Source of the DNA: Halanaerobiales bacterium
GTDB lineage: Bacteria; Bacillota; Halanaerobiia; Halanaerobiales; DTU029
Reading direction: 5' to 3'
Length of the DNA stretch: 33,529 bases
NCBI GenBank assembly: GCA_025451675.1
Contig: JANWJZ010000015.1
Location: 1 to 33,529, forward strand
Of the stretch, positions 16,116-23,859 are shown one piece after another (the stretch's first letter is position 1; the number at the start of each line of letters is the position of its first letter). The notes beneath the pieces are model-generated. The model was not told the DNA's origin, did no database searches, and saw only the letters and a list, made by a program, of their open reading frames with translations. A program made the position numbers and the translations under genes.

Positions 16116-16327
16116 TTTATTGAGAAAAAATTTTCACAAAAAATAGAAATTTAATTACATAATAAAAGAATTTATGTATTTTTACCGCCCTTTCTATAGA
16201 TAAGAGGGAAAGAAGTTACAATATAGTTATAATTATACTAATATCTGGTAATAATTATTTTTAGAATACTTTTAGGATGTCTGCCTATAATTTTTCTGTA
16301 GATGCTTTCTTCAGGAAGGAGATTGTT

Positions 16328-17494
16328 ATGAAACATACTGGAATTTACAGGCTGATAATGATTTTGATGTTTCTGCTGGTTATTTTCACCCTGGTGCAGG
16401 CTGAAGAAACTCCCACGGTGACTGCCATGTTTTATGAAACTGATCTGAGAGATGCAATACATGAATTATCCCTCCAGACCGGTATAAATATAATAGCCGA
16501 CCAGACAGTCAGCGGAATAATTACAGCTGATTTGAAAAATGAACCTCTCGAAAAGGCCCTCGCAATGATATTATCTTCCGGCGGGTATACCTTCAGGAAG
16601 ATAGAAGATTATTATTTAGTAGGTTTAGCGGACCCCAGGAATGTCAGTTTCAGCGAACTGAGTGAACTGGAGGTAATTTATCTGAAAAATATCACAGTCA
16701 GAGATGTTTTCAACCTTCTTCCCTCTTTTTTAAGTAATTATGTAAAAGGTGAAAGGGAGGGCAATATATTAACAATAAATGCTGCACCAAAGGATTTAGA
16801 GAGGATCAAGGAATTTATAAAGAGTATTGATACTCCCCGCAAACAGATTGAGATAAGGCTACTGGTAACCGAAGTAGATTCAAAAATTGTTAGTGAATTG
16901 GGAATCTCCTTTTTACAATTTGAGAGTGGAGAAGATGTAGAAAGAAGAATTGCCTACAATGCCAGAGATAAGCTTTTAAGTGTTGAAACAGATTTATATG
17001 GCTATCTGCTTACACAGCTGAAGGCAATGGAAGAAAAACAGCTGGCTTCTATAGAAGCAAACCCATACATACTTGTCAGTGACGGGGGAAGTGCCAGGTT
17101 TTTTATAGGTGAAGAACAGGTGCTTTTAATTCATAATGAGAGTTATGGCAGCACCAGGACAGAAGAAGTAAAGGTAGGAGTCGAATTAGAAGTTTATGCC
17201 AGAATAATCGGGGAGGACCAGGTTTATTTGGAATTATCCCCTGTTATAAGCCATTTTATTAATGATGTTAGCCCGGATTTACTCGTCAAGGAAAATTCAT
17301 TGACAACAACCTTGCAGATAAAAAATGGAGAAACCATTTGCCTGGCTGGAATGACCATTAAGAAGGATTCTGCCTCTACCAGAAAGGTGCCATTGCTGGG
17401 TGATATCCCATTAGTAAGGTGGTTATTTAGAAATGAAAATAAAGAAGAAAATGAAAGGGAATTACTGGTTTTTGTAACACCTATCATCAGGTAG
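16328..17494 (+). CDS. Short secretin (GspD/PilQ family outer-membrane channel)
   Basis: 388 residues from ATG 16328, which follows AGGAAGGAGAT (16313-16323). Signal peptide at 1-25, hydrophobic 8-23, cleavage likely after VQA. Residues 33-99 are an STN/N0-type domain (DAIHELSLQTGINIIAD), 112-170 an N1-type domain, and 175-388 the secretin core: EANPYILVSDGGSARFFIG, then LKNGETICLAGM-like IKNGETICLAGM, and the signature VPLLGDIPLVRWLF (354-367) near the end. Secretins form large ring channels in an outer membrane. This one is short, with a single N1 repeat and no pilotin-binding tail. No pilM, pilN, pilO, pilus ATPase or prepilin gene is near, unlike type IV pilus loci. It heads a run of exported-protein genes. 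Confidence 0.9.
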   Translation: MKHTGIYRLIMILMFLLVIFTLVQAEETPTVTAMFYETDLRDAIHELSLQTGINIIADQTVSGIITADLKNEPLEKALAMILSSGGYTFRKIEDYYLVGLADPRNVSFSELSELEVIYLKNITVRDVFNLLPSFLSNYVKGEREGNILTINAAPKDLERIKEFIKSIDTPRKQIEIRLLVTEVDSKIVSELGISFLQFESGEDVERRIAYNARDKLLSVETDLYGYLLTQLKAMEEKQLASIEANPYILVSDGGSARFFIGEEQVLLIHNESYGSTRTEEVKVGVELEVYARIIGEDQVYLELSPVISHFINDVSPDLLVKENSLTTTLQIKNGETICLAGMTIKKDSASTRKVPLLGDIPLVRWLFRNENKEENERELLVFVTPIIR

Positions 17495-17509
17495 GAGATG
17501 ATTATTTGC

Positions 17510-18775
17510 ATGAAGCGGATTAGACTGATTTTTTTGATCTTACTCTTCCTTTCTGTTTCCCTGATAATTAACGGGCAAAAGAAATCAGGAGATACAGCCA
17601 TTCCAAAAGATATAGCTATTGAGCTGCTTAAACCTGCCTGGGAAAGCATGAGTCGCCCGGCAGATTCGCCAATGATATTTTACCTGTTAAAGATGAAGGA
17701 ATTGTCCTGGCAAACAGTAAGGGAGCTGGAATATAAACTGGCCTGGGGGGATAAAGTTGAAGAAGAAGGAAGTCAGCTAATCGTTGATCAGGAATTAATC
17801 AGCAGTGTCTGGCCAGGTGTTCTGCTGGAACTGAAAAATAGCGGGAATGAATCGTTTATCAAAAATGAGTATAATTCCTGTCTGGTAACTATACCCGCTA
17901 AGGAAGGGACAATAAGCATTAATAATATTCTTATAGGTGATAAAAGCAGAGAATCTCCCGCTTATTTTCGGTTCTCCCTTACTCCCATAGATATATCCCT
18001 TAGTGATGAAAGTATATATACATACCTGAAACTTGAATATAAGGATAAGCCTGGCAATATGGCCAGTGTAGAAACCAGTGCCTGGTTTAACAGCACAGAA
18101 ACTGAACCTGTCGCTCTTTTAAAACTATACCAGGAAGGCGATAAAGAGAATCAGCACAGATATTTTGCCTTATTTATTGAGGCAAGGACTCTTTATCCGG
18201 AATTGCTTAAGGAAACAGCCTCTATTCTGGTCATGAACGATATTAAAGGAATTAATCAAATATTTTCATTGGAAAAGGAAAATGAGCCGGAAAACCAATT
18301 TGCCATTTATGCAGGTAGTAACGGTGGTGGTATAGAGTTTAACAGGAGTTATGGTGGGGAAAAAATAAAGCTTTCTCTCTTCAGTATTGATGGTACACCA
18401 GGTTATCAGCTTTTATTTGATAAAAATTTTTCAGTCAGTGATGAATTGTTTGCTTCAGTCCAGGTTCAAAAGAAGACTGAACCACATTTTATGTTGGGTC
18501 TGAAAGACAATATTAACTATACTTCAGATTTTAAATGGCAGCTTTCCTTTTATCCCCTGGTAATTGCCCTTGACGATAATAGAAGACTACAGCCAGTCAC
18601 AGAGATTTTATTATCCTATGAAGGAGAAGTCTTTGCAATAAGCTATCAAGGTATCCACCATAATGAGGAAATAAGCAATATTATAAAAATAAATTATGAA
18701 TTTACTCCCGTCATAGGCCTGTCGGTTATCTGGAAAAAGGAAGCCTGTTATCTAGGTTTGTTGTATAACAAATAA
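17510..18775 (+). CDS. Exported beta-rich protein of unknown function, possible outer-membrane barrel
   Basis: 421 residues; family not recognised. Signal peptide at about 1-23 (MKRIRLIFLI start). From about residue 255 to the end it is a series of short segments of alternating polar and hydrophobic residues joined by turns, such as FAIYAGSNGGGIEFNRSY, IKLSLFSIDGTPGYQLLF and TEILLSYEGEVFAISYQ, the look of a beta-barrel membrane domain; this is a visual judgement. The N-terminal half is mixed. AGGAG (17493-17497) overlaps the secretin stop and fits ATG 17510; the ATG at 17498 abuts it and is rejected. The close spacing implies co-translation with the secretin, and so a possible partner in the outer membrane. 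Confidence 0.65.
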   Translation: MKRIRLIFLILLFLSVSLIINGQKKSGDTAIPKDIAIELLKPAWESMSRPADSPMIFYLLKMKELSWQTVRELEYKLAWGDKVEEEGSQLIVDQELISSVWPGVLLELKNSGNESFIKNEYNSCLVTIPAKEGTISINNILIGDKSRESPAYFRFSLTPIDISLSDESIYTYLKLEYKDKPGNMASVETSAWFNSTETEPVALLKLYQEGDKENQHRYFALFIEARTLYPELLKETASILVMNDIKGINQIFSLEKENEPENQFAIYAGSNGGGIEFNRSYGGEKIKLSLFSIDGTPGYQLLFDKNFSVSDELFASVQVQKKTEPHFMLGLKDNINYTSDFKWQLSFYPLVIALDDNRRLQPVTEILLSYEGEVFAISYQGIHHNEEISNIIKINYEFTPVIGLSVIWKKEACYLGLLYNK

Positions 18776-18788
18776 TTTTATTAAGGAT

Positions 18789-19613
18789 GTGGTCTCACTG
18801 AAAAAGTGTTTACTCAATATTATTATACTTTTAGTATTTGCTGTAAATATAGTCAATGCAGGGGAGATTGATTTAGCTGATTACAGACACGGCTGGACCT
18901 ATGAAAATGATATCTGGCAGTTAAGTATATTTTACTCCAGGCCTGATGGCAGGGAGGCTTTATTAAGATTCAGGCTGAAAGAAGGTGTTGAAAAACATCA
19001 GGCTACTTACAGCCTATCTTCTGATAACAGGGATGTTCCGGAACTATTGGTGCAGGAGGCAGATAATTATAAGCCTTTTAAGAAAATTAATATAGGCCTG
19101 AGTTCCCGGCGGAGGGAAAGAATTATTGTTCTAAGATTTGCAGAAGATTTATCCTATGCCAGTGCCTATTATCCAGTAATTTTAAGACCGGACGGTAAAC
19201 CTGGGGTTAATCCGGTGATAAATCTGGAAATTTTTCATCCGGAACTGGCGGAATTATTTGTCCATAAAAAGAATATTCATTTTAATATCGACTATGGTCC
19301 AGGCAGATATGCGGAGGAAGAGTTTTTACTGGAAGTCCGGACTAACTTTAGCGGTTGGTCCTTAAGGGCATACCTGGATCTCCTGTCTATGGTACAGGAT
19401 GGTGTGAAGGAAACCCCAGCCATATCTATAGAGAAATTTCTAATTTCTGTTAATGGTTCAGAGGCAATACCCTTCAGGAAAGAAGGCATAAGTATCATTA
19501 CTGGAAACAGGGTTATGGAGGGAAGCTTTTTTATACAACTTTTTATGGATGTCAGTCTTTCTTTTAAGGCTGGAGAATATACAGGCGCTAAATTAATGTT
19601 TGCCCTGGAATGA
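18789..19613 (+). CDS. Exported protein with pilin/coat-like C-terminal region
   Basis: 274 residues if GTG 18789 is used. The hydrophobic signal sequence LLNIIILLVFAVNIVNA ends near residue 24. AAGGA at 18783-18787 touches GTG 18789 but is ten bases before CTG 18798, which would give a typical LKKCLLN- signal start; a CTG start is therefore likely. The body is beta-rich. The C-terminal half shows YGPGRYAEEEFLLEV, VRTNFSGWSL and the ending FKAGEYTGAKLMFALE, parallel to motifs in the next two genes (xGxYA, a TN-x-V segment, AG(E/D)Y near the end). It may be a two-domain, tip-like relative of them. Family not recognised. It is 13 bases from the upstream gene. Confidence 0.62.
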   Translation: MVSLKKCLLNIIILLVFAVNIVNAGEIDLADYRHGWTYENDIWQLSIFYSRPDGREALLRFRLKEGVEKHQATYSLSSDNRDVPELLVQEADNYKPFKKINIGLSSRRRERIIVLRFAEDLSYASAYYPVILRPDGKPGVNPVINLEIFHPELAELFVHKKNIHFNIDYGPGRYAEEEFLLEVRTNFSGWSLRAYLDLLSMVQDGVKETPAISIEKFLISVNGSEAIPFRKEGISIITGNRVMEGSFFIQLFMDVSLSFKAGEYTGAKLMFALE

Positions 19614-19620
19614 AATAAAA

Positions 19621-19683
19621 GGGAGGTGAGATATGACAGGCTGAAAGATATTTTCCGGGTTTGTAGGTGTGGAGAAGTCATAA
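19621..19683 (+). other. Strong ribosome binding site with a three-codon reading frame
   Basis: GGGAGGTGA (19621-19629) is followed by ATG ACA GGC TGA (19633-19644). Reading past the TGA the frame stays open for 12 more codons to TAA 19681-19683. No longer product is possible, so it is a leader mini-frame, a decayed gene start or chance. Confidence 0.35.
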
Positions 19684-19715
19684 GAAAAGAAAAATAAAAA
19701 AATGGAGGGAACTAT

Positions 19716-20231
19716 ATGAAGAGATTATTCTTTACTGTATTTGTTTTAAGTGTATTTTTAGCTGTCAGTGTTCTTTCCTTTGCTGCTGAGGGACGCCTGG
19801 GTAATATAAAGGCTGAAATTCCAGTAACAGCCTCTGTTGGCAAGTATGCAGAGATACTTGTCGGTGATACCGCTGTAAATCTGACCCTGATGGGAGCAGC
19901 AGGAGAGGTAGCCCGGGATGATGACAATATCTTTACAGTAGAATCTAACTGTCTGGTTGATTTATCCTTTAAAGCAGATGCCCTGACGAATGGCAGAGAT
20001 TTCATAGCAGTAGATTACGAATTATTTAAAGAAGGAAATCCAGATGCCCTGTTGAGCTATAGAACTGAAAGGGAGAATGGCGATGATGTTGTAATCAGGA
20101 ATGTACAGGATTATGTTGATGGTGTAGTCAGATATAATATTGCTGTTGCTGCTACACTGGGTAATATCTCTGACCAGTCAGCAGGAGAATATAGTTCTAC
20201 TATTTATTTAACAGTAGCTGCCGCAGAATAA
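19716..20231 (+). CDS. Exported pilin/coat-like subunit, paralogue of the next gene
   Basis: 171 residues. Signal peptide 1-23 ending SFA-A. The mature protein of about 148 residues is beta-rich: AEIPVTASVGKYAEILVG near the start, FTVESNCLVDLSFKADALT in the middle and AGEYSSTIYLTVAAAE at the end. The AGxY...LTV ending is the layout seen in several donor-strand or coat-type beta-sandwich subunits, such as spore-coat-U and DUF4402-like proteins, but no family can be named. It has a single cysteine in the mature part. GGAGGG (19704-19709) precedes ATG 19716. Size, export and the paralogue next door suggest a repeating surface subunit. Confidence 0.68.
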   Translation: MKRLFFTVFVLSVFLAVSVLSFAAEGRLGNIKAEIPVTASVGKYAEILVGDTAVNLTLMGAAGEVARDDDNIFTVESNCLVDLSFKADALTNGRDFIAVDYELFKEGNPDALLSYRTERENGDDVVIRNVQDYVDGVVRYNIAVAATLGNISDQSAGEYSSTIYLTVAAAE

Positions 20232-20250
20232 ATTTAAGGAGGTGTGAGGC

Positions 20251-20991
20251 TTGAAAAGATGTGCTATTCTTGCATCCCTGTTCCTGCTCCTTTTCTCTCT
20301 GCTGGCTTTCGCTAACAATCAAAGCATAGTGAATGAGATTCCGGTAAAAGCAGATGTAGGTCCCTACGCTGCTGTTATACCCCAGAAATTGATGTTTGAA
20401 ACCACAAAGGGATGCTGGTTGATACCCCTGGAAGATGAATGGTTTGAAGTGGAGCCGGAAATGAGCTTTGGCCATTTTTCCGGTAACCCTGATCAGAGAA
20501 GCCGTATACAGGATTCCAATTGTTTCCTGGTGGAAACAAATTGTGCGGTAAATATTATATTTGATGGTACACCATTGACTCACCTTGATGGCTCAACTAC
20601 ACTGCCTACAACCTATTGGGCCTTTAGGTCTCTCGGGGTCAATGATATACCGATTACTTTCCCCCGGTTCCCCCTTTTACCGCCATTTGTGCCATTACAG
20701 CTGATACCGGCACAGGAGATCGGATATTTTGGGGACAGTTCTGATATACCCAAGGGGCCGGATTTTGATATTAAGCCGGATTGGCTTGATTTAATCCTGG
20801 AAATTGTTACCGGGGTAATCTGGCCAACACCTGAGAAGGTGGAAAGCAGGCAGGTTTATACCGGTATCAATGAAAAAGGCGTATATGCCTTCCAGGTATT
20901 TGGTTTTGCAGGAGTGAGAGAAAATATCTCCGCTATGAAAGCAGGAGATTATGTCGGTGAAATAAGACTGACAGTTTCAGCAGAGTCCTGA
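20251..20991 (+). CDS. Exported pilin/coat-like subunit with a proline-rich insert
   Basis: 246 residues from TTG 20251 behind a near-perfect AAGGAGGTGTGA (20236-20247). Signal peptide 1-21 ending AFA. It aligns with the preceding protein: NEIPVKADVGPYAAVIPQ, FLVETNCAVNIIFDGTPLT and the C-terminal AGDYVGEIRLTVSAES all have direct counterparts. Between the second and third blocks it has an extra stretch of about 75 residues, proline-rich (PRFPLLPPFVPLQ) and with PDFDIKPDW. It is either a variant subunit or a cap or adaptor of the same structure. 19 bases separate it from the upstream paralogue. Confidence 0.67.
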   Translation: MKRCAILASLFLLLFSLLAFANNQSIVNEIPVKADVGPYAAVIPQKLMFETTKGCWLIPLEDEWFEVEPEMSFGHFSGNPDQRSRIQDSNCFLVETNCAVNIIFDGTPLTHLDGSTTLPTTYWAFRSLGVNDIPITFPRFPLLPPFVPLQLIPAQEIGYFGDSSDIPKGPDFDIKPDWLDLILEIVTGVIWPTPEKVESRQVYTGINEKGVYAFQVFGFAGVRENISAMKAGDYVGEIRLTVSAES

Positions 20992-21002
20992 TTGTTTAAT
21001 TG

Positions 21003-21027
21003 GGCTGCCGGAAATTTACCGGCAGCC
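21003..21027 (+). promoter_or_regulatory. GC-rich hairpin between the subunit genes and the chaperone-like gene
   Basis: A perfect 9-bp stem, GGCTGCCGG (21003-21011) with CCGGCAGCC (21019-21027), loop AAATTTA. Downstream is GCTTATTACTTATT, a weak U-run at best, so partial termination or 3' protection of the upstream mRNA is more likely than a full stop. Confidence 0.6.
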
Positions 21028-21070
21028 GCTTATTACTTATTATTGCTTATAATAAAGGGAGGGAAGACTT

Positions 21071-22603
21071 TTGCGTAGATTATTTGGGCATTTATCAGGT
21101 ATTATAATATTTTTTATTTTGATTATTATCTCCAGTTTTTCTGTAAAGGCGATTGGTGTACAACCCTTGACTATGGATTTTTCGATGAGCCCGGGAGAGT
21201 CAGAGGATTTCCAATTAATATTCAGCTCTTCCGGCATTGCGGAAAATGTTTCGATATCTATCTATCAGTGTTACCAGGATTATACCGGCATTCTGGGATA
21301 TAGAATAGCTGATCCGGAGTCTTTTCCAGAGATGAACTGGATAGAGTTAGAGAAAAATCGTGTACAGGTACCAGCTGGCGGGGAAGTATATTTGAATGGC
21401 AGGCTTAGGGTTCCTTTCGGTACCCGGCCCGGTTCCTATATTATTATATTAATGGTAGAACCGGAGCCTGGTAAAACAGGGGATGGAATCTCTTTAATGG
21501 TCAGATATGCGGTGCGCCTGATTGTGCGGGTTGATGGGCCAGCTCTACGGGAGAGGGGCAGGATAAATTTTATCCAGTTGGAAGAGGACGAAAATGGAGA
21601 ACAGGTGATTGTCGCTGCAGTTGAAAATACCTCGCAACTGGATTACCTGGCGGGAGTAGAGGTAAGCATCAGGGATGAAAACCGCAGCCTGGTTGAAAGA
21701 GTAATCCTGAGGACTATTTCTGCGGCCAGGAATAACCGGGATTTGACCAGACTGTACCCTGGTTCAAAGGTTTTATTTATTGGTAAACCGGAAAATTATC
21801 TATATCCTGGAAGCTATGAACTGAGGGCTATAATGAGCTATGGGGAAAGAGGTAAAGCCTCTTTTATTGAAAATATAAATATTTTGCCCGGCCAATTTAA
21901 GGAGCCGGCCAGGGTACAGAGTGGATATTGCAGCATAAAACCGGAAGTAATTAATGTGAAACTTGAACCTGGTCAGAGGATTACGGAAAGCATTGAAATC
22001 ACAAATATTTCCCGGGAAAGGGTTTATATAAAAACAGAACTGGTGGATATAGAGGAGGAATACGCTTATTCTCTTTTACCATGGTTGAGACTATATGCTG
22101 ATAGGAGCCTGGTTCTTTTGCCCCGTCAATCCCGGAAACTATTAAATATCCTGCAGCTGCCATTAAATATAGCAAAAGGGAGCTATTATGCCCTGGTGAA
22201 TATAAAGGTCTATCAGGATGAGAATATGATAAATCTCCTGGAAGAACAGATTGTGCCGGTTTGCTGTATTGTCGGTGAAGAGAACAGGATGGAAATAAAA
22301 ATAAATGGTTTTGAGTTTAATAATGGTGAGCAGGAGATTTTTCTGCCTGTAAAAAATATTGGGCAGGTTCATCTGAAACCCAGTATAAAATTGACTATAT
22401 TGAATAAAGAAGAGCAGCTTATGGAGGAAATAGAATTAGACTCCATGGATTTGATAGGAGGGCTTTTGTTCCCTGGTGAGGAGACTATATATAAAGGTAT
22501 CCTGAAGAAAAAGCTGGAAGAGGGAGAATACGATGTGTTAGTGGAGATCAGGAATGAAAATGCCAGTTTGGAAAGAGCCAATTACAGGATACTAATAGAA
22601 TAG
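21071..22603 (+). CDS. Exported protein with duplicated Ig-like/chaperone-like unit
   Basis: 510 residues from TTG 21071 behind GGGAGGGA (21057-21064). Signal peptide about 1-27. The protein is an internal duplication of a two-domain unit. Unit 1: MDFSMSPGESEDFQLIF, then RVQVPAGGEVYLNGRLRVP and PGSYIIILMVEP, then an Ig-like domain with VIVAAVENTS. Unit 2: VNVKLEPGQ-type VINVKLEPGQRITESIEI, then LVLLPRQSRKLLNILQLP and KGSYYALVNIKVY, then EQEIFLPVKNIGQVHLKPS. Each first domain has the order of PapD-like periplasmic chaperone N-domains and of DUF916-type host-interaction domains. It may chaperone or scaffold the subunits encoded just upstream. No usher gene is adjacent. Assignment to a fold is inference. 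Confidence 0.68.
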   Translation: MRRLFGHLSGIIIFFILIIISSFSVKAIGVQPLTMDFSMSPGESEDFQLIFSSSGIAENVSISIYQCYQDYTGILGYRIADPESFPEMNWIELEKNRVQVPAGGEVYLNGRLRVPFGTRPGSYIIILMVEPEPGKTGDGISLMVRYAVRLIVRVDGPALRERGRINFIQLEEDENGEQVIVAAVENTSQLDYLAGVEVSIRDENRSLVERVILRTISAARNNRDLTRLYPGSKVLFIGKPENYLYPGSYELRAIMSYGERGKASFIENINILPGQFKEPARVQSGYCSIKPEVINVKLEPGQRITESIEITNISRERVYIKTELVDIEEEYAYSLLPWLRLYADRSLVLLPRQSRKLLNILQLPLNIAKGSYYALVNIKVYQDENMINLLEEQIVPVCCIVGEENRMEIKINGFEFNNGEQEIFLPVKNIGQVHLKPSIKLTILNKEEQLMEEIELDSMDLIGGLLFPGEETIYKGILKKKLEEGEYDVLVEIRNENASLERANYRILIE

Positions 22604-22719
22604 GAAAGGCAAATAAGAGATCACCCTCTGGTAGAGAATTATGGTATTAATGAAGGGAAATAGATGTATTAAAAGAATATAGTAATAGGCTGTTTAATAT
22701 TAACAGGGAGGATGGGACA

Positions 22720-23859
22720 ATGCCTTCTGTTCTGGAGCTTTCATACCTGGGGAGTTTTTCCATTAAAATTAATGGACAGTCTGTTGAAACGGATAGCTGG
22801 AAATCGAAAAAAGCCTTAACATTATTGAAATATTTAGCTTTTCATTCAGGAAAAAAACTTTCCAGGGATTTTTTATTGGAGCTTTTCTGGCCAGGGGATT
22901 ATGAAATATATAATTTACATGTAGCAGTTTCCTATATTAGAGGGAGATTAAGGGAATATACCGGTAAAAGAAAGGAAAAATTCATCCATTACAGCCAGGG
23001 ATATTATTATTTTGATAAAGCTGTTATTAAAAATATCGATTGCCAGGAGCTGGAGGATTTATATCAGGAGGGGCTCCTTTTAGAAGGGAAGGAACCGGAA
23101 AAAGCCCTGGAAAAATATAAGGAGGCTCTGGTTCTTTATAAAGACCATTTCCTTGTTGATGATATTTATGAGGATTGGACCACAAGCATCCGTGAATATT
23201 ATCTGGAAATCTATGCCCGGCTGGTTATAAATGCCACTAAAATACTGGCCGAAAGAAATAATTATGAAGAGGCTATTGAATTATGCAAGAGGAGTTTAAA
23301 ATATCAACTTTATAATGAAGAAATTTACTATCTTCTGATAAGCCTCCTGATAGAGTCTGGCCGGATGCTTGAAGCAACCAGGTATTATCAGGAATATTCC
23401 AATATTATTGGCCAGGAGTTTGGCCTGGAACCTGAACAAAAATTTAATGTCCTTTTTGAAAGGGATAAAAAGTTTTTTTCTGCCGGTGGGCTGGATTATA
23501 GAAATTTCTCCACCGGGCCATTTTTCTGTAGCCGGGAGTTATTTCTTTTATTATATAAGTTAGCTTTAAAAAGGAGAAAAAGATATAAAGAGGATTTTTC
23601 CCTGATATATATTGAAATCGGTTCGAATTTACTCAGTGAGACAAAACAATATTTATTTCATCTCTGCCGCAATAAATTACGGGAGGGAGATATATTCTGT
23701 CTCTGGGATAAAAGAAGTATATTGCTGCTGCTCCATAAAACCAATGTAGAGGAATCTTTGAAAATTAGAGATAGGTTGATTGAAAATTTACCGGTTTTTA
23801 TGAAAGAAAAACTCCAGATCGAAGTAATTGATATAGAAAAGAAAAAGGAACTTTTGTAA
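22720..23859 (+). CDS. BTAD/SARP-type transcriptional activator with degenerate GGDEF-like C-terminus
   Basis: 379 residues. Residues 5-98 form the OmpR-like winged helix typical of SARP proteins (LGSFSIKINGQ, SKKALTLLKYLAFHSGK, LFWPGD, HVAVSYIRGRLRE). Residues 105-248 are the helical bacterial transcriptional activator domain with TPR-like pairs. Residues about 285-357 look like a GGDEF domain with a broken active site: FSLIYIEIG, LCRNKLREGDIFCLW, then DKRS where GGDEF would be, then ILLLLHKTNVEESLKIRDRL. It should bind DNA and could sense a ligand but cannot make c-di-GMP. GGGAGG (22706-22711) precedes ATG 22720. Lying downstream of the secretin locus in the same direction, it is the likely regulator of it. 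Confidence 0.85.
   Translation: MPSVLELSYLGSFSIKINGQSVETDSWKSKKALTLLKYLAFHSGKKLSRDFLLELFWPGDYEIYNLHVAVSYIRGRLREYTGKRKEKFIHYSQGYYYFDKAVIKNIDCQELEDLYQEGLLLEGKEPEKALEKYKEALVLYKDHFLVDDIYEDWTTSIREYYLEIYARLVINATKILAERNNYEEAIELCKRSLKYQLYNEEIYYLLISLLIESGRMLEATRYYQEYSNIIGQEFGLEPEQKFNVLFERDKKFFSAGGLDYRNFSTGPFFCSRELFLLLYKLALKRRKRYKEDFSLIYIEIGSNLLSETKQYLFHLCRNKLREGDIFCLWDKRSILLLLHKTNVEESLKIRDRLIENLPVFMKEKLQIEVIDIEKKKELL

Follow-up and report, generated by a model that had tools for sequence, protein, structure and literature searches.

A candidate chaperone-secretin surface-assembly cassette in outer-membrane-bearing relatives of Gram-positive bacteria

Closest described systems and the cassette

Secretins are known as the pores of ATP-driven machines and of filamentous phages; PapD-type chaperones, for their part, are known to work with ushers. 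Here we describe a gene cassette that pairs a short secretin with a chaperone-like protein, found in a 33,529-nucleotide stretch of a Halanaerobiales bacterium (GenBank assembly GCA_025451675.1, contig JANWJZ010000015.1; hereafter the window), contig C15 in a genome of 2.03 Mb and 90 contigs. The combination of a secretin, a secretin-derived barrel protein (B), a pilus-type chaperone (C510) and small exported subunits suggests an unrecognised way to build surface fibres or coats, and its hosts are outer-membrane-bearing relatives of Gram-positive bacteria. The linkage of these genes is conserved, B is homologous to secretins, the modelled fold of C is of the WxLIP/PapD type and the subunit-like proteins share a C-terminus. 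We favour, with modest confidence, the interpretation that the cassette encodes a chaperone-secretin surface-assembly pathway placing immunoglobulin-like (Ig-like) subunits on the outer surface. Three points are new: chaperone and secretin are widely paired, the 421-residue protein derives from a secretin, and C510 models as a WxLIP/PapD-like tandem. The cassette comprises the following genes:

16328..17494, + strand: short secretin, 388 residues, with a signal sequence, N0/STN, one Secretin_N, the secretin core and a gate-region motif (VPLLGDIPLVRWLF)
17510..18775, + strand: B protein, 421 residues, secretin paralogue without a gate-region motif and with a predicted C-terminal 12-strand barrel
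18789..19613, + strand: S274, exported subunit-like protein, 274 residues, the largest of the three, with an AGEY C-terminus and homologues in the cassettes of genomes G001, G002 and G005
19716..20231, + strand: S171, exported subunit-like protein, 171 residues, homologous to S246; a relative in locus L056 matches DUF4402
20251..20991, + strand: S246, exported subunit-like protein, 246 residues, assigned to the S171 family by BLAST and alignment
21071..22603, + strand: C510, tandem double chaperone by model, 510 residues; module 1 (~26-282) WxLIP-like, module 2 (~285-505) PapD-family-like
22720..23859, + strand: SARP/BTAD-type transcriptional regulator

An earlier sequence-only reading of the window had proposed seven genes running in one direction from the short secretin to the regulator, the first six with Sec signal peptides. 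All seven open reading frames were found head to tail on the + strand. The first six proteins carry an N-terminal hydrophobic stretch, judged by 12-residue hydrophobicity means rather than by a signal-peptide program, with best means of 2.87-3.52 (≤2.10 from residue 41 onwards), and the regulator lacks a strong one (1.27). Several figures given here are based on mechanical calls of reading frames, in which start positions may be wrong; the ATG of the secretin at 16328 is preceded by an AAGGAG-like site, with the longest frame opening at 16277, and the longest frame of B encodes 425 residues and opens at 17498.

Among described systems, the cassette would work most like a chaperone-usher system (FimC-FimD, CsuC-CsuD, CfaA-CfaC) with the secretin in the usher's place. 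Both have a PapD-type fold in the chaperone (Z 11-14 for module 2 in the C510 model), small exported subunits that end in a conserved strand (with few DUF4402 or SCPU matches here) and, in the cassette, no ATPase. Unlike chaperone-usher systems, however, the cassette has a secretin and a secretin-barrel protein, and its chaperone consists of two tandem modules. The usher domain PF00577 was detected in none of the 59 genomes of the class, under conditions in which the Escherichia coli control was detected; classical chaperone-usher membership was therefore rejected, in agreement with the earlier remark that such systems have an usher and not a secretin.

A search of the open-access literature, which leaves most subscription papers outside its scope, found no such cassette described. 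The accessible parts of the Halothermothrix orenii genome paper place two secretins in type II secretion system (T2SS) operons and do not mention the cassette (PMC2626281). In the available portion of PMC5007114 PilQ alone is discussed as a secretin, with no such cassette, and none appears in the portions available of PMC4793230, PMC6668835 and PMC7549365, which deal with diderm Firmicutes and secretion systems.

Conservation and co-occurrence of the cassette

With C510 as bait, C homologues were identified in 30 named loci, including those of Halanaerobium kushneri (L058), H. saccharolyticum MSL 17.2 (L061) and Halanaerobacter jeridensis (L060), with further loci in Halothermothrix sp. and a Limnochordia metagenome-assembled genome (MAG; L068). 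Close relatives of the genome are Halanaerobiaceae/Halothermothrix MAGs, with C510 77% and 66% identical, and in G001 and G002 the cassette occupies the same genomic place, with proteins 58-90% identical. Any C match was obtained in 20 of the 59 class genomes. Of 398 genomes drawn from the phylum, with up to three candidates scored per genome, 56 had any C match and 15 outside the class had one of at least 300 bits.

The short secretin lay within 4.6 kb of C and on the same strand in 36 of 40 loci (30 genomes) with a long C (at least 400 residues; 40 of 44 rows). Three of the secretin-less loci (L037, L131 and L138) are on short contigs (4.5-9.7 kb), and the gene could be located past the end; the fourth, L153, holds a distant C beside a 1248-residue protein. 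Neither the secretin nor B was found in 7 of the 30 named loci (L044, L050, L051, L057, L065, L069 and L070), all on contigs of 3-10 kb. The secretin stood directly upstream of B in 51 of 56 rows, which come from overlapping fetches and are not all independent; four of the other five B rows start at a contig end and one (L068) has an interrupted secretin.

The distribution across genomes gave the same picture. The secretin subfamily (at least 273 bits; next best 209) was present in 15 of the 59 class genomes, and the same 15 have a C match of at least 118 bits, the next genome scoring 84. B occurs in 17 class genomes, namely 14 of the 15 with the cassette plus G008, G011 and G019; in these three it sits at a contig end, which in G008 and G019 cuts off the adjacent secretin. 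Only 2 of 12 genomes of genus g13 have the cassette, which therefore seems to be gained and lost as one block.

The pairing also extends to remote homologues: an adjoining secretin of ~360-530 residues was found in 19 of 20 distant C loci, picked from weaker C matches with frames of at least 500 residues (frames G135:C62 and G059:C139 and most short frames, of ~250-350 residues, were left out of this set). Other long distant C genes accompanied by a secretin are those of L143, L150, L151, L154 and L156. The C-secretin pair is therefore wider than the B-containing cassette. Short or fragmentary C matches in L034, L152 and L155 have no secretin alongside, and L035 gave no C match by profile.

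The sequence-only reading had allowed that the neighbours might not be conserved together in relatives; the linkage in 36 of 40 and 19 of 20 loci, across class and phylum, shows that they are. These figures also bear on the idea of a mosaic, in which unrelated surface genes are kept together by chance or by shared regulation without forming a joint machine. Gene order is indeed variable, either Sec-B-(SARP)-subunits-C or subunits-C-Sec-B, and the subunits are highly diverse, but the same-strand linkage and the coincidence of the secretin and C genome sets in the class make a mosaic very improbable.

Several loci depart from the common organisation. In L033 (4337-7968; G012) C and B are each split into two frames beside an intact secretin, and the cassette looks decayed. 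In the Limnochordia MAG (L068, 1284-4146) the secretin is in two frames, whether through assembly or in reality, and B is full length with N-domains. A C-like Ig protein (~266-271 residues; 492 in L153) lies beside or near a protein of 856-1248 residues with CarboxypepD_reg or SdrD_B domains in L058 (12948-16812), L035 (6874-10761), L153 (3096-8344) and L155 (3258-7690). The large protein has no PF00577 match in the class and may represent, in L029, L035 and L058, an undescribed partner of an usher-like kind. The pair found in H. kushneri follows 3' of the secretin cassette, on the same strand.

The short secretin and the other secretins of the genome

The short secretin matches the Pfam families STN (2.6e-7), Secretin_N (6.9e-7) and Secretin PF00263 (2.6e-34). 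Its top-scoring NCBIfam models are PilQ and GspD, with which it shares a homologous secretin core, but it remains below both family cut-offs (153.5 bits against 284.35 for PilQ and 130.3 against 351.35 for GspD), and the cassette is without the ATPase, platform and pseudopilin of those systems. A pattern that we wrote ourselves for what we take to be the gate-region motif of secretins, VPxLGxIPxxxxxF, was present in 32 of 42 short secretins and in none of 40 B proteins; of the ten secretins that it misses, one is truncated at the edge of its contig.

Four PF00263 genes were found in the source genome. The 846-residue secretin on contig C48 neighbours PilM, PilN and pilin-type genes, and the 605-residue one on C63 neighbours T2SSE, T2SSF and PilN genes; the third is the window gene. 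The fourth, of 391 residues on C33, is the first gene of a second cassette copy with the order Sec391-B446-S293-S168-C505. The possibility, raised earlier, that the window secretin is the only PilQ of the genome was thus ruled out. The second copy (G000:C33, 188-5730; L023) is divergent, with the secretin 47% and C 30% identical to the window proteins, and its presence in the same genome implies that two surface structures may be made. Five named cassette-bearing genomes have from 2 to 6 PF00263 matches each.

A stripped-down relative of the T2SS or the type IV pilus (T4P) could be envisaged, in which the secretin borrows an ATPase, an inner-membrane platform and pseudopilins encoded elsewhere to secrete the subunits. 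The genome would offer such parts, as it has T2SSE-type ATPases on C26 and C63 (but not on C15 or C33) and T4P/T2SS-like clusters, and the NCBIfam ranking of the secretin points the same way. The clusters on C48 and C63 carry their own secretins, however, and a Pfam scan of the window proteins detected no T4P or T2SS gene in the cassette, as the sequence-only reading had maintained, while a chaperone-type C is tightly linked. Moreover, the cassette comes and goes, whereas some secretin is present in 58 of the 59 class genomes. We regard borrowing as quite improbable. With separate T4P/T2SS secretins and conserved neighbours, the different route of export or assembly that had been proposed fits, and is supported as far as computation goes.

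A phage connection is suggested by the match of the secretin to PHROG phrog_1012, the pIV family of M13 (6.1e-44), which covers residues 30-402 of the longer frame and positions 6-397 of the 403 in the profile; size and domain order are the same. The secretin pore of filamentous phages works without a T2SS or T4P platform. A captured filamentous-phage apparatus, with a pIV-like secretin extruding a filament of small subunits, would account for this full-length match. Yet at E ≤0.01 PHROG gave nothing for five of the six other cassette proteins and, for the regulator, one weak match of unknown function, so that a prophage remnant was rejected for want of recognised phage partner genes. The cassette contains no other phage morphogenesis gene, its substrates would be chaperoned Ig-like proteins exported by Sec, and many genomes of the phylum carry it. 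Capture of a phage apparatus is accordingly hardly to be expected, although pIV can still be the remote origin of the secretin.

Secretin homology and barrel of the B protein

The sequence-only reading had described the 421-residue protein as beta-barrel-like. This holds for its C-terminal half, while the N-terminal half is a secretin-like domain. In hhalign comparisons 40 B proteins matched 59 short secretins with a probability of 95.1% (P 3.1e-8), and B proteins shorter than 470 residues alone did so with 88.9% (P 2.4e-6, 197 columns). The first, smaller alignments had given 69.5%, and controls with reversed secretins, five column shuffles and C against secretins reached at most 1.6%. Four B proteins of 521-567 residues (L056, L068, L139 and L140) match the secretin hidden Markov model (HMM) at 1e-21 to 1e-40, mainly in the N-terminal domains. 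Two shorter B proteins do so at 1.7e-5 and 1.8e-4, with matches that cover the beginning of the core, and three long ones (L135, L136 and L137; 499-543 residues) have no match to this HMM. Pfam Secretin was found in 0 of 24 B proteins and STN in 2 of the 24. The B proteins of L068 and L056 match STN with 27.9 and 29.3 bits, around the cut-off of 28.4; N0 is usually absent.

The AF2 model of B (pLDDT 76.1, pTM 0.50) has 12 strands in residues 265-424 of the 425-residue frame, mostly at pLDDT 83-94, and this barrel superposes on KdgM/NanC 12-strand porins (Z 17.7, rmsd 2.7, 154 residues, ~11% identity). The likeness lies in the modelled fold of the C-terminal domain and no functional relation is implied; unlike in those porins, the barrel is fused to a secretin-like domain. 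Residues 57-242 superpose on the secretin domain of InvG (Z 10.2, rmsd 6.0, 129 residues, 16% identity). This superposition and the hhalign match to the secretin family led us to reject a plain beta-barrel. Sequence comparison and model together indicate that B is paralogous to secretins, lacks the gate motif and is fused to a predicted 12-strand barrel of the outer-membrane type. A fusion of a secretin domain with a 12-strand barrel was not met in the open-access literature, in which no search was aimed at that fusion by name.

C510 and the tandem chaperone model

For window B, S274, S171, S246 and C510, Pfam and NCBIfam gave nothing above noise. When profiles of C, B and the S246/S171 family were run against PDB sequences, they returned no match or three irrelevant weak ones. 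C510 was modelled by AF2 with a pLDDT of 89.9. The earlier description of it as a double Ig-like protein was right as to the Ig type and understated as to extent, since the protein models as two tandem two-domain modules, WxLIP-like and then FimC/Caf1M/PapD-like. Residues 26-282 superpose on the solved Enterococcus faecium WxLIP 9i1y (Z 18.2, 240 residues, rmsd 5.6) and on WxLIP bound to long WxL (Z 17.9), and CfaA scores 12.0; module 1 is closest to WxLIP among the VIA-align matches listed. Residues 285-505 superpose on the chaperones YadV (5ghu; Z 13.6), SfaE (12.9), FimC (12.6), Caf1M (12.4), CsuC (11.8) and PapD (11.2). These structural comparisons cover Foldseek-ranked chains only, and a family's absence from them is no evidence.

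The most conserved windows among 29 C sequences (an alignment without the fragments L069 and L070) are 145-153 (RYAVRLIVR) and 121-129, coinciding with model strands 146-154, the last of the first domain, and 121-131, the preceding one. In PapD-type chaperones the F1-G1 donor hairpin is located at that place. Conservation averages 2.41 bits per residue in module 1 versus 1.93 in module 2.

Weak matches to WxLIP families were also obtained in sequence: WxLIP_PGBD matches 14 of 29 C proteins at E ≤0.1 (best 9.8e-6) and WxLIP_HBD 4 of 29 (best 4.4e-5). Among ten C homologues searched singly, six have PGBD near 35-123 and two of these have HBD near 147-271, in the WxLIP order and inside module 1. 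In the available part of PMC10599100, WxLIP binds WxL through DUF916, a strand of which is predicted to insert into WxL, a precedent for the strand donation proposed below. The strongest competing interpretation draws on all of this, including the rank of solved, also WxL-bound, WxLIP structures at the top of the matches to module 1. In it the cassette is a diderm counterpart of the WxL/WxLIP system of monoderm Firmicutes, C510 being a stable surface or periplasmic scaffold for Ig-like surface proteins and the secretin a type II-like exit for folded proteins, with no polymer. The cassette differs from WxL/WxLIP, however, in its secretin and its diderm hosts. The WxL domain PF13731 was not detected in any of the 59 class genomes, although the Lactococcus lactis control was, and membership of the WxL system was rejected on this ground. 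C510 has no C-terminal membrane helix, unlike WxLIP, with neither a strong hydrophobic stretch past the signal in the sequence nor a helix in the model, which ends in a strand (E498-509). A dedicated pair of secretin and secretin-barrel protein also speaks for a role in passage. We therefore consider a WxL counterpart unlikely.

Exported subunit-like proteins

The three subunit-like proteins end in KAGEYTGAKLMFALE, SAGEYSSTIYLTVAAAE and KAGDYVGEIRLTVSAES, as the shared AG(E/D)Y ending noted earlier would have it. At least one protein with this type of ending is encoded within 6 kb of C in 35 of 39 C loci, versus 2 of 72 proteins of 120-400 residues lying more than 6 kb from C in the same loci. 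The pattern was written after the ends had been seen; the shared ending is more than chance. In an alignment of 64 of 69 subunit-like proteins (leaving out L041:7697-8518, L044:3681-4085, L057:3040-3873, L066:5485-6462 and L067:7837-8847) a central Asn, and a Tyr in the AGxYxGxIxxTV end, are nearly invariant, and the proteins are otherwise highly diverse.

Most subunits match nothing in Pfam. The top match among the 64 is that of the S171 relative L056:8649-9125 to DUF4402 (4.3e-5, 24.6 bits against a cut-off of 25.2), and an L055 protein matches SCPU (0.0067) and DUF4402 (0.012), both of which we take to be subunit families of the usher-pathway type. The WxL domain is absent among the Pfam matches listed for the 64 proteins (25 of 30 families). 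S274 is possibly a tip or adhesin subunit.

Proposed assembly mechanism

From these data we infer the following course of strand donation, docking, export and polymer formation. Sec would take subunits, chaperone, secretin and B to the periplasm, as their N-terminal hydrophobic stretches suggest. There the two tandem modules of C510 would capture the subunits, with the conserved hairpin of module 1, which ends in the strand RYAVRLIVRV (145-154), offering a strand to each Ig-like subunit beside the conserved strand at its end, AGxYxGxIxLTV. Carrying its subunit, the chaperone would dock on the N-domains of a secretin channel. The short secretin and its paralogue B would either make up this channel or stand at its sides, B providing a permanent 12-strand barrel as an outer-membrane anchor or platform without a gate motif of its own. 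Subunits would then be passed on, probably polymerising by strand exchange, and the fibre or coat would leave via the secretin pore without an ATPase, as in chaperone-usher assembly.

A number of observations weigh against this interpretation. The likeness of C to FimC-type chaperones is one of fold only, with ~10% sequence identity; Ig-like domains are common, and eukaryotic PapD-like (ASH) chains score alike, CEP192 and axoneme chains reaching Z 12-13 in the same list as FimC. Plain Foldseek places eukaryotic axoneme proteins above WxLIP for C, and its top 50 for B are barrel-type proteins only. The WxLIP Pfam scores are below gathering in all six matching homologues of the ten, and window C510 has no WxLIP Pfam match. 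The AF2 models are single chains of B and of C510, B's with the pTM of 0.50 and the rmsd of 6.0 over 129 residues on InvG given above. A secretin ring is built from many copies, and such a ring with a 12-strand barrel per B is hard to fit into one complex. The distant C-secretin pairs L143, L154, L156 and L160-L179 yielded no B, weak matches falling on the secretins themselves only, and B is missing from G045, one of the 15 class genomes with the cassette; B is therefore not essential to the kind. The long distant C genes of L153 and L170 lack an adjoining secretin, and for 4 of the 39 C loci no subunit with the motif is encoded within 6 kb. Finally, DUF4402 (2), SCPU (1) and PapG_C (1) were matched by few of the 64 subunits, all below or near noise, and stand among 30 matched families that are mostly unrelated.

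The negative results for usher, WxL, T4P/T2SS and phage genes mean that, for every described system compared, the cassette lacks a defining feature that was tested. We put forward tentatively, as slightly less probable than its contrary, the broader claim that the chaperone-secretin cassette represents a distinct class of outer-membrane assembly, wide in this diderm phylum related to Firmicutes. In such a class a secretin would replace the usher, a tandem chaperone would form the link between the families of PapD and WxLIP, and some members of the phylum would have remodelled a second copy of the secretin into a gate-less component with a 12-strand barrel. The conserved chaperone-secretin pairing, if true, would be a new solution for moving fibre subunits across the outer membrane, in hosts whose lineages are central to the question of diderm and monoderm envelopes. 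Through the tandem chaperone, the PapD chaperones found in diderms would be connected with the WxLIP proteins found in monoderms, and one could then test whether WxL systems are what is left of a pathway for outer-membrane assembly.

Regulation and genomic context

The SARP-type assignment of the seventh gene was borne out by matches to BTAD (1.1e-13) and Trans_reg_C. In 15 of 39 C loci a SARP-like gene is encoded on the strand of C and no more than 6 kb away, and the SARP gene of the window is likely the local regulator of the cassette. Its C-terminal part (23467-23859) has, by eye, the look of a degenerate GGDEF domain, with a weak NCBIfam match to diguanylate cyclase (0.0058). A pattern scan located one further element:

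21003..21027, + strand: hairpin of 9 pairs, 8 of them G-C, between S246 and C510

Such a strong hairpin, placed behind the subunit genes and ahead of C510, would be consistent with high expression of the subunits and low expression of the chaperone, and may be an attenuator or a stability element holding subunit mRNA above chaperone mRNA.

The cassette is flanked by enolase on one side and SecG on the other. On its 5' side, on the + strand, is a glycolytic run of PGK, TPI, PGM and enolase, with a CggR-like regulator and GAPDH first, and terminator-like hairpins separate this run from the cassette. SecG is followed on the 3' side by an HD-type protein, RNase R and SmpB, all of these names, like those of PGK, TPI, PGM and enolase, having been assigned from sequence.

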